From: Nitrososphaerales archaeon TH526 | Lineage (GTDB): Archaea > Thermoproteota > Nitrososphaeria > Nitrososphaerales > Nitrososphaeraceae | Length of the DNA: 18,417 bases | Reading direction: 5' to 3' | Assembly: GCA_014523665.1 (NCBI GenBank) | Contig: JAATVR010000144.1 | Coordinates: 1 to 18,417, forward strand | Shown: one piece after another, positions 6,132 to 13,748 of the stretch | Position numbering within the stretch: the stretch's first letter is position 1 | How the letters are laid out: each line of letters opens with the position of its first letter | Made by a program: the position numbers and the translations under genes | The notes under the pieces: generated by a model | Told to the model about the DNA's origin: nothing | Database searches by the model: none | What the model saw: only the letters and a program-made list of their open reading frames with translations

Positions 6132-7007
6132 TCAACTTTTGGATAAGGTATGTACTTTGGTCCAATAAACGTCTAACCTGTTTTCGAGAAAAAGTTTAAC
6201 TGCCTCCAATAAGGTAGCAGCCTCTAACTGCTGACCCTTCTTCCTTATCGTCTCTAGTGTATCGTCTTCCATTACTTTAAAGGCTTCCTGACAAATAATG
6301 GGGCCTTGATCTAGCTCCTCAGTAACAAAATGGGCAGTACATCCCACTATTTTTGCACCTCTCTCGAATGCCTGCACATAGGCGTAAGCTCCTGGAAATG
6401 CTGGCAATAAAGAAGGGTGAATATTAATGATTCTGTTAGGGTAACGCCAGACAAAATTAGGGGTCAATATGCGCATATAACGAGCAAGCACTATGAGATC
6501 AATGTTATAATTTTCGACAGCTTCCAAGATCTCGCTTTCTGCATTTGCAGAACCACTCTCATACGAAACTGAGCGAAAGGGGATCGAAAGCTCATCTGCA
6601 ATGCCTTTGAGGGTATTTTCACTGCCAATAATTACTGAAATATTAGAGTCAATTTCCTTCTTACGTAGAGCGGTCAATATCGATGATAAACAATGAGGTT
6701 CTTTGCTTACTAGAAGGGCTACATTCTTCTTTCTGCTAGGTTCTTCAACGTGAGCTTTGATCTCCATTTGCAATTTGGTGGAAAGATCGCGCAGTTCTGA
6801 ATGTATTTTTTGAAGTTTTATGGTGTTACGAAACGAAGCTTCCAGATGCATTCCAAATAAACCATGGACGACCTTCTGGTTAATCTGTTCAATATTTCCG
6901 CCATGACGAAAAATAGAGTTGGTTATTTCTGCTACTACCCCCTCTCGGTCCTTGCCCACCACGGTGATCTCGATTAATGTCTTGTCTCTTGTGCTCCGGC
7001 TAGCCAA
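6132..7007 (-). CDS. purU: Formyltetrahydrofolate deformylase
   Basis: Hydrolyses 10-formyltetrahydrofolate to formate and tetrahydrofolate. The 291 residues show an N-terminal ACT-type domain (about 10-85, ITVVGKDREGVVAEITNSIF) and a C-terminal formyltransferase fold. The hydrolase signature is clear: NIHPSLLPAFPGA with catalytic Asn and His, followed by CTAHFVTEELDQGPII with the catalytic Asp. The RYMRIL segment before it is also typical. The start is a TTG at 7007 with no ATG near. A TATA-like GGTTTATG at about 7033-7040 would put transcription start almost on it, so the mRNA is probably leaderless. It is followed by the creatininase-family gene. In archaea that make purines with formate-dependent PurP, such an enzyme could supply formate (inference). 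Confidence 0.93.
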   Translation of the reverse strand: MASRSTRDKTLIEITVVGKDREGVVAEITNSIFRHGGNIEQINQKVVHGLFGMHLEASFRNTIKLQKIHSELRDLSTKLQMEIKAHVEEPSRKKNVALLVSKEPHCLSSILTALRKKEIDSNISVIIGSENTLKGIADELSIPFRSVSYESGSANAESEILEAVENYNIDLIVLARYMRILTPNFVWRYPNRIINIHPSLLPAFPGAYAYVQAFERGAKIVGCTAHFVTEELDQGPIICQEAFKVMEDDTLETIRKKGQQLEAATLLEAVKLFLENRLDVYWTKVHTLSKS

Positions 7008-7405: not shown

Positions 7406-7453
7406 TTCATGCGGGGGGTGGGATTTGAACCCACGAATCCCTTAGGAACAGGG

Positions 7454-7477
7454 TTTTAGGAGAAAAGACCTGACCCA
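7454..7477 (-). other. tRNA-Leu intron 2 (24 nt, position 38/39)
   Basis: The central helix is U33-U34-A35-G36 (7480-7483) pairing with CUAA (7456-7459). Bulges are AAU (7479-7477) and AAC (7455-7453), and a short inner stem GGG/CUC closes the intron. Cutting after the second base of each bulge joins A38 to C39. Confidence 0.7.
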
Positions 7478-7485
7478 TTCTAAGC

Positions 7486-7520
7486 CTCGCACAACCATGT
7501 ATTCTTGTAACACATGAGGT
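7486..7520 (-). other. tRNA-Leu intron 1 (35 nt, position 30/31)
   Basis: The central helix is C25-G26-C27-A28 (7523-7526) pairing with UGCG (7488-7491). Bulges are GGA (7522-7520) and AGG (7487-7485). Inside, CAUGU (7512-7516) pairs with ACAUG (7496-7500). Cutting after the second base of each bulge joins G30 to G31. The inner helix next to the bulges is weak, so this is a relaxed BHB. Confidence 0.65.
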
Positions 7521-7579
7521 CCTGCGCCGTTGGCCAGGCTTGGCAACCCCCGCTCGTAAGCTGTTCACTGTGCGCTTCA

Positions 7580-7588
7580 ATATATTAG
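7580..7588 (-). promoter_or_regulatory. TATA box of the tRNA-Leu gene
   Basis: CTAATATATT on the minus strand, centred about 30 bases upstream of the mature 5' end (7553), the expected place for an archaeal tRNA promoter. Confidence 0.6.
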
Positions 7589-8169: not shown

Positions 8170-8202
8170 CATTGCAGGGATAGTCATTGCAGTCAATGCA
8201 AT
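8170..8202 (+). repeat. CATTGCAG direct repeats plus an inverted copy in the glmM leader
   Basis: CATTGCAG occurs at 8170-8177 and again at 8185-8192, 15 bases apart (about 1.4 helical turns). TGCAAT at 8197-8202 is an inverted copy. The set sits 39-71 bases before the chosen glmM start and could be an operator or an RNA stem. Confidence 0.35.
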
Positions 8203-8240
8203 CATTATCATTAAATTACATTTCTGTGCTTAAAAGCAGA

Positions 8241-9632
8241 ATGAAACGTGAGCATACCCCCAAGTTATTTGGAACTAATGGAGTCAGAGGAATTTTTGGT
8301 CAAGATCTTGATCTCCCATTCATTATGAAGGTTTCTCGTTCGTTAGCGTCATTTTTTGCCAAAGGACCACTCTTGGTCGGTATTGATGGACGATTGTCTA
8401 GTCCGATAATCTCCAGAATCGTTTCTGCAACGCTCAACTCTTCCGGGACGGATACCTTTATGGCGGGCCTTCTCCCTACCCCGTGTTTGCAATACGCGAC
8501 CAAACACTTAGGCTATCAAGGTGGCATCATGATTACTGCTTCACACAATCCACCAGAGTACAATGGTATTAAGGTTATAGCAAGTGATGGAGTAGAAGTT
8601 TCAAGAGATGATGAGTCCAAAATAGAGTTCAATTTTAATTCTGGAAATATCTCGCCAGGTATGAAAATAGGAAGAGAGGGCAAGGAGGATAGGGTAATTT
8701 CTTCGTATGTAGATTCAGTTATCCACGTCGTCGAGTCAGAAAAAATTTCCTCAAAGGGATTCAAGATTGTAATGGATACAGGAAATGGAACACAATCATT
8801 AGTAGCCCCGATTATAGCACAGAAACTCGGATGTAAAGTTTTAACCCTTAATGGAAATATAGACGGTAACTTTCCTGGGAGAGGTTCTGAACCCACACCC
8901 CTTAACCTAAGTACTCTTACCTCGCTCGTAAAGTCTACAAATGCAGACCTGGGGGTGGCATACGATGGTGACGGAGATCGTAGTATATTTTGCGACGAGA
9001 ATGGACAAATCATTTGGGGTGATAGATTAGGTGCCTCATTGATAGCGTACCTATTAAAAAATGGCTATGAAGGGACGGATATCGTTTGCCCGGTGAACAC
9101 AACAATGATGGTTAATATGGTCGCTCAGAAAGCGGGATCCAAAGTTATTCATACTAAGGTAGGAAGTGTCGTAGTTTCGCGTGAGATGATCAAAAGAAAT
9201 GCGGTCCTAGGGCTTGAAGAAAATGGCGGTTTCATGAATGCGAGAATGAATAGCGTCCGAGATGGAGCCCTAACCACGCTATTGGTTTTGGAGATGCTGT
9301 CATCTGGCTCTGGAAAGCGACCACTTTCCAGAGAGATCATGGATCTTCCTCGAATCTTTCAATACAAGTCCAAATTCAGTTGTAACTCACTAGAGCTTGC
9401 AGAGCATGCCATTGCATCGTGTTCAAGCCATGGCACGAATCTTAGAATAGAGAATCTTGATGGCGTCAAGATCTGGATTGACGAGGAGACTTGGGTAATG
9501 GTGAGACCTAGCGGGACTGAACCACTGATAAGAATGTACGCCGAATCTACTGACAAAGATCTTTTGGACTCAAAGGTGCGCGAATACTCTAAAGTAATTA
9601 TGAATGCCCTCGACAATCACGAGATCAAATAG
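8241..9632 (+). CDS. glmM: Phosphoglucosamine mutase / phosphohexomutase
   Basis: An alpha-D-phosphohexomutase, expected to interconvert glucosamine 6-phosphate and glucosamine 1-phosphate on the way to UDP-GlcNAc, or to act as phosphomannomutase/phosphoglucomutase. Visible elements are KLFGTNGVRG at the N-terminus, the phosphoserine loop TASHNPP (Ser101), the Mg-binding DGDGDR (242-247), the sugar-binding GLEENGGF, and the C-terminal phosphate-binding RPSGTEPLIRMYAES. Start choice: the frame is open back to a TTG at 8187, but that start would lie inside the repeat cluster and add 18 non-conserved residues; the ATG at 8241 puts KLFGTNG at residues 8-14, as in relatives. The length, 463 residues, is usual. 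Archaeal members vary in sugar preference, so the GlmM role is likely but not proven. Confidence 0.9.
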   Translation: MKREHTPKLFGTNGVRGIFGQDLDLPFIMKVSRSLASFFAKGPLLVGIDGRLSSPIISRIVSATLNSSGTDTFMAGLLPTPCLQYATKHLGYQGGIMITASHNPPEYNGIKVIASDGVEVSRDDESKIEFNFNSGNISPGMKIGREGKEDRVISSYVDSVIHVVESEKISSKGFKIVMDTGNGTQSLVAPIIAQKLGCKVLTLNGNIDGNFPGRGSEPTPLNLSTLTSLVKSTNADLGVAYDGDGDRSIFCDENGQIIWGDRLGASLIAYLLKNGYEGTDIVCPVNTTMMVNMVAQKAGSKVIHTKVGSVVVSREMIKRNAVLGLEENGGFMNARMNSVRDGALTTLLVLEMLSSGSGKRPLSREIMDLPRIFQYKSKFSCNSLELAEHAIASCSSHGTNLRIENLDGVKIWIDEETWVMVRPSGTEPLIRMYAESTDKDLLDSKVREYSKVIMNALDNHEIK

Positions 9633-13301: not shown

Positions 13302-13748
13302 TCATAAGTCAACCAAGAACGTTGCAACAAATTTGGTGTCGATACGTTGGATTTTCAACTCGTGATAGGTAACTGCTTTGATCTCTATCTTGTAGTTATG
13401 CTTGTCATAATTGACTTTTTCCCCTCCTACGTATGCCTTAAGAAAATACCCTTTTTTATCGGCGTTCAAATATCTTTCAGATATTTCAATAGAGAACCTT
13501 GATAGAACAATCTGGTCGACGAGGATCTTCAACAAGACCTTCTCCAACCAGTCGTACAGTAGATTTTCAAGTTCTTCGCCATTAGCTGTGATCGTCATAG
13601 ATTGGCAGATTTCCACCTTTTCAATATCAAACATTATGTTAACCATTCCCTTCGCACAATTCTCGAATAGGTCATCCAAATCGCTACCGTAGGCCTGAAC
13701 AAAAGCGTCTGTGCTATGCTCCAAATATTCGTATCCTCCGGAGTCCAA
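13302..13748 (-). CDS. Archease (RtcB RNA ligase cofactor)
   Basis: Archease activates RtcB, the ligase that joins tRNA exons after BHB introns are cut, by promoting its guanylylation and turnover. The 148 residues carry the family features: GGYEYLEHSTDAFVQAYGSDLDDLFENCAKGM at the N-terminus, ENLLYDWLEKVLL, and the C-terminal VKAVTYHELKI-type segment seen here as IKAVTYHELKI. Acidic residues D14 and the C-terminal Asp (D147) match the places where metal ligands occur. The start is TTG at 13748 with no ATG option upstream of the conserved part. It is divergent from hisS across 62 bp. rtcB itself is not in the window. Confidence 0.93.
   Translation of the reverse strand: MDSGGYEYLEHSTDAFVQAYGSDLDDLFENCAKGMVNIMFDIEKVEICQSMTITANGEELENLLYDWLEKVLLKILVDQIVLSRFSIEISERYLNADKKGYFLKAYVGGEKVNYDKHNYKIEIKAVTYHELKIQRIDTKFVATFLVDL

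Follow-up and report, generated by a model that had tools for sequence, protein, structure and literature searches.

A clade-conserved tRNA-Leu(UAG) gene of Nitrososphaeraceae with two closely spaced introns, probably spliced stepwise

Archaeal tRNA genes with multiple introns were reportedly described by Sugahara in 2007 and 2008. In the tri-split tRNA of Caldivirga maquilingensis, the anticodon is carried by the middle piece. Passages of two papers describe tRNA genes of Thaumarchaeota and Thermoproteales that each contain two or three short bulge-helix-bulge (BHB) introns, closely spaced and at noncanonical positions, as in the gene described here (PMC8450103, PMC4033280). In thaumarchaeal tRNAs with closely spaced noncanonical introns, one intron must leave before the next BHB forms, as a passage of PMC8450103 states. 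Another example of two noncanonical introns in one gene is the Caldiarchaeum subterraneum tRNA-Thr(GGU), for which an excerpt reports introns at 24/25 and 45/46 and, in the same population, a form with a single intron; it differs from the present gene in being another tRNA, with other intron positions and a longer middle exon (PMC3293823). The Caldivirga tRNA likewise has three pieces, anticodon-bearing pieces and BHB-guided joining, but its pieces are separate transcripts in the account excerpted, whereas the gene described here would give one precursor (PMC4033280). The literature searched, in titles, abstract openings and passages, held no description of a tRNA-Leu(UAG) with the intron pair 30/31 and 38/39.

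The window, the whole stretch of DNA analyzed here, is the 18,417-nt contig C812 of Nitrososphaerales archaeon TH526. On its minus strand, and hence read as the reverse complement, 144 contiguous nt (7410-7553) form a tRNA-Leu(UAG) gene with segments of 33, 35, 8, 24 and 44 nt. Exon 1 (33 nt, 7521..7553) contains the acceptor 5' strand, the D arm and anticodon-stem positions 27-30 (CAGG), and its bases 1-33 were matched at 100% by BLAST even in two genomes from other families (G062 and G089). It is followed by intron 1 (35 nt, 7486..7520) at position 30/31, exon 2 (8 nt, GCTTAGAA, 7478..7485) with positions 31-38, including the anticodon UAG and A37, and intron 2 (24 nt, 7454..7477) at position 38/39. 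Exon 3 (44 nt, 7410..7453) supplies CCCTG at 39-43, the long variable arm, the T arm, the acceptor 3' strand and the discriminator A. Joining the exons yields an 85-nt tRNA-Leu(UAG) with the stem CAGGG/CCCTG and the loop CTTAGAA. These coordinates, intron lengths, product and anticodon arm had been proposed in an earlier note made from the letters of the window, and all were reproduced from the sequence. The exons lie within 144 contiguous nt and not at the separate loci of a split (trans-spliced) tRNA. A TATA-like box, AATATATTG (7578..7586, minus strand), lies at -33 to -25 relative to the mature 5' end; it was found in all five genus genomes compared, where the sequence farther upstream varies, and is the putative promoter.

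Both introns have the 4-bp helix, the 3-nt bulges and the cut after the second bulge base that characterize BHB introns, and the gene is of the known archaeal BHB-intron tRNA type. At intron 1, exon CGCA pairs with intron TGCG between the bulges GG|A and AG|G (BHB1). At intron 2, the helix TTAG/CTAA, in which intron CUA pairs with the anticodon UAG, lies between AA|T and AA|C (BHB2). The helices, bulges and cut points given in the earlier note are exact for the window sequence. The outer helix of BHB2 is imperfect, with 0 contiguous pairs in the motif search and C32 unpaired. Because 126 minimal BHB-shape motifs occur in the 144 nt and the chosen two are not the top scored, the motif alone is weak evidence, and evidence from outside the gene is needed.

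One such line of evidence concerns the exact joints. Taken alone, the window gene leaves the joints of intron 1 ambiguous by one base and those of intron 2 by two, since cuts at 29/30, and at 37/38 or 36/37, yield an identical product. Splice registers were compared in 51 distinct two-intron genes, drawn from 90 locus hits of which some were the same record reached twice. The pattern that selected these genes fixed the exon ends, so the comparison identifies the register with a uniform product rather than the absence of other gene forms: 30/31 with 38/39 gave a single anticodon arm in 51/51, and register 29/30 gave three variants (23, 17 and 11 genes). The invariance of exon 2 in these genes is likewise by construction, being part of the selecting pattern, whereas in the family loci described below it is unselected. 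The 51 genes yield 20 distinct mature sequences, all of 85 nt. Given the same two introns, a cut of the second one base earlier, at the canonical 37/38, is improbable. Such a cut would give the same product in the window gene, and a passage of PMC8450103 names 37/38 as the commonest intron position in archaea. However, the relatives would then differ at position 38, which would be A in 36, T in 14 and C in 1 of the 51 genes, where 38/39 leaves one sequence; the BHB rule, with the cut following the second base of the bulge, also agrees with 38/39.

Relatives with occupied and empty sites provide a second line of evidence. BLAST of the 144 nt matched 101 of 101 genomes, the distant ones often only in the 3' part among the matches listed. 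Fifty-five of the 61 sampled family genomes could be read, our own included; the other six (G008, G011, G031, G054, G056 and G060) lacked a full-length match, and 0/6 were recovered with a further pattern. Both introns are present in 52/55, and in the remaining three (G027, G032 and G037) only intron 2 is present, with CAGG joined directly to GCTTAGAA. The site of intron 1 is empty at loci L068, L074, L081, L089 and L091, and that of intron 2 at L092, L093, L089 and L091. At L092 and L093, intron 1 is retained and GCTTAGGA runs directly into CCCTG; L089 and L091 have neither intron. Among other families, intron 2 alone is absent in G062 (f3) and G070 (f11), and both introns are absent in G066 (f7) and G063 (f4). 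These empty sites fall exactly at the predicted joints. Together with the register comparison, they back the two introns, the positions 30/31 and 38/39 and the UAG anticodon that the earlier note had proposed. The note had also called an 8-nt exon between two introns unusual. The layout is real but its rarity was overrated: judging by the genomes read, it is standard in the family Nitrososphaeraceae and ordinary there.

These relatives also bear on the possibility of a single intron of at least 59 nt, or another single cut, with the 8-nt stretch intronic. Other minimal BHB motifs are numerous in the 144 nt and leave room for such a cut. However, relatives with one occupied site retain GCTTAGAA or GCTTAGGA as exon, and in the family loci the 8-nt stretch, which holds the Leu anticodon, is unchanged between two fast-changing segments. 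We regard a single intron as very unlikely and reject it because the one-site relatives retain the 8-nt exon.

Wider searches placed the two-intron gene among several related forms. A GTDB scan gave 118 pattern hits at 117 loci (L192 was matched twice), which is no census because intron 2 was limited to about 30 nt and a window-type exon 3 was required; both introns were found at 41 loci, intron 1 only at 2, neither at 63, a 38/39-type intron without intron 1 at 5 (4 with a D-arm insert) and other classes at 7. An odd partial match (L126) was to Micrarchaeota. Applied to the phylum, this pattern matched 16 of 349 genomes, all 16 in the same order. A different double-intron layout, with a D-arm insert and a 38/39 intron and without intron 1, occurs in family f13 (L086-L088, in G085, G094 and G072). 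The tRNA-Leu(UAG) gene L090 (G089:C16:53638-54313, minus strand), from another family of the same order, has a 591-nt insert at the canonical 37/38. The insert encodes a 188-aa protein with a predicted LAGLIDADG homing-endonuclease fold and a winged helix; Pfam names only the winged helix, the LAGLIDADG assignment coming from the fold prediction. In the same-genus genome G063 (L091), the site of this insert is empty. The insert may be a mobile archaeal tRNA intron.

Pairing across relatives, compared at the sequence level, raises the BHB motifs above chance. All four central pairs of intron 1 are kept in 46 of 48 distinct sequences. For both introns the means exceed all of 500 base shuffles, which do not remove relatedness: central pairs average 3.96 against 1.24 when shuffled (highest 1.58) at intron 1 and, in 42 distinct sequences, 3.26 against 1.80 (highest 2.33) at intron 2, and inner-helix runs average 4.5 against 0.66 (highest 1.10) and 4.5 against 0.63 (highest 1.14), respectively. 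The inner C:G of intron 1 is present in 48/48, and the next two inner pairs vary on both sides. The second is TA in 28, AT in 4, TG in 4, CG in 3, GT in 1 and unpaired in 8 sequences, and the third is CG in 24, TA in 11, GC in 4, GT in 2, AT in 1, TG in 1 and unpaired in 5. At intron 2, CUA lies opposite the anticodon UAG in 39/42 and the inner G:C is present in 42/42. The central helix of BHB2 has 4 bp in 12 of the 42 distinct introns, 3 bp in 29 and 2 bp in 1, the pair to U33 being absent in most relatives.

The gene is probably single-copy in its genome, a draft of 4.9 Mb in 833 contigs (96.6% complete, 5.3% contamination). Neither ARAGORN with the bacterial code nor Rfam at gathering scores reported a tRNA in the window, and a genome-wide Rfam tRNA search, with 150 of 261 candidates scored, gave 40 matches but none on C812, so that it misses the gene too. 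A T-arm pattern that tolerated as many as 3 mismatches matched 30 places in the genome, and BLAST of the 144 nt gave 5 matches, C812 among the matches listed. The UAG exon pattern, with intron 2 of up to 30 nt, matched one place, the window gene. Pattern scans of the draft and a reading of its Leu genes revealed no further Leu(UAG) gene, and the intact copy elsewhere that the earlier note named as counter-evidence did not appear at the DNA level. The other Leu genes, whose anticodons were read by eye, are GAG on C161 (intronless, G37), UAA on C626 and CAA on C739. As in the window gene, a 30/31 intron (CGTG:CACG) interrupts the tRNA-Leu(CAG) gene of this genome (L218, G000:C202:828-942), which carries a second insert near the anticodon. 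One draft genome contains two near-identical copies of the gene (G002:C121 and G002:C264), perhaps from assembly redundancy near contig ends. The nearest Pfam-named ORFs in the window encode a formyltransferase with ACT domains (6132-7007, minus strand) and a phosphosugar mutase (8187-9632, plus strand). A decayed tRNA pseudogene with insertions, which the silence of ARAGORN and of Rfam at gathering scores might suggest, is extremely unlikely and was rejected, as the exon arms are intact, the intron pairing and the TATA-like box are kept and this is the sole Leu(UAG) gene found.

We are highly confident that this is a functional, probably single-copy two-intron BHB tRNA-Leu(UAG) gene, whose precursor would be cut by the splicing endonuclease and whose exons would be ligated by RtcB. 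The host genome contains two tRNA_int_endo genes and RtcB, a gene set that fits a heteromeric splicing endonuclease acting with RtcB. By eye, the endonuclease gene on C78 keeps Y/H/K residues of what we take to be the catalytic kind, and the one on C393 is without the His. An archease gene lies in the window itself (13302-13748, minus strand; PF01951, E 8e-39), about 6 kb from the tRNA; archease is a known activator of the RtcB ligase. According to a passage of PMC4090602, Thaumarchaeota possess alpha2-beta2 type endonucleases, and unusual tRNA introns abound in this group.

In the proposed mechanism, a single precursor transcript would span all three exons, the endonuclease would excise the two BHB introns and RtcB, with archease, would ligate the exons to the 85-nt tRNA. 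Intron 1 would leave first, because BHB1 uses C25-A28 (positions 25-28) and blocks the anticodon stem. Intron 2 would follow, because the helix flanking BHB2 is the stem 27-31/39-43, which is continuous only after removal of intron 1. The occurrence of just one of the two introns in some genomes suggests that each is removable alone. The gene encodes a clade-conserved double-intron tRNA that is probably spliced stepwise. The precursor was also folded, a check put forward in the earlier note. With ViennaRNA, the BHB1 pairs of the window gene form at 0.50-0.56 in the full precursor and at 0.13-0.18 without intron 2; those of BHB2 form at no more than 0.01 with or without intron 1. When the 51 genes are folded with intron 1 removed, their anticodon-intron pairs reach a mean of only 0.16-0.18. 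Forcing the acceptor together with the BHB costs about 8 kcal/mol for BHB1 and about 4 kcal/mol for BHB2, and the BHB fold is not the MFE at 37 C. Folding alone did not prove the BHBs, and thermodynamic folding does not favor BHB2.

Position 37 of the tRNA (7479 in the window) is an A. Of 250 genomes, 81 matched a tRNA-Leu(UAG) pattern, giving 82 matches in all, with A37 in 55/55 gapped and G37 in 27/27 ungapped ones; this contrast may reflect one or two inherited events. One interpretation, which we hold only tentatively and think doubtful, is that intron 2 constrains the mature tRNA, such that lineages gaining it had to replace G37, the usual base and the site of m1G37, by A37. The proposed reason is that CCUA, at the 3' end of the intron, lies paired to the anticodon, and that a G37 would pair with the extra C and slip the splice motif. 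In silico, mean pairing with the C that precedes CUA is 0.66 for G37 and 0.0 for A37. In 34 of 51 genes G37 weakens the inner pair (mean 0.12 compared to 0.28), and it also raises anticodon-intron pairing to about 0.6-0.67 from 0.16-0.18. The host genome contains a Trm5-type gene. A rule that A37 needs an intron fails in tRNA-Leu(CAG), which was matched in 87 of the 250 genomes of the order. Four f13 genomes (G085, G101, G108 and G114) and G065 have A37 but no intron, and G064, G070, G075, G090 and G126 combine G37 with an intron. In the GTDB scan, Hadarchaeum (L210) has A37 without an intron, and Nitrosothermus (L201) has A37 together with a short intron that is best placed at 37/38. Because tRNA-Leu(CAG) breaks the association, and because unmodified A37 is allowed in archaeal tRNAs reading C-starting codons according to a passage of PMC7668247, the link between A37 and the intron is a lead only.

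ARAGORN with the bacterial code and the Rfam cut-offs miss what is apparently the sole tRNA-Leu(UAG) gene of this genome. Its relatives form a natural series, with both introns, either one or none in the same tRNA and with exact joints. This series would make stepwise tRNA splicing, and the gain and loss of introns, testable in related cultures. The contrast between A37 and G37 raises the question of whether an intron can dictate the base adjoining the anticodon.
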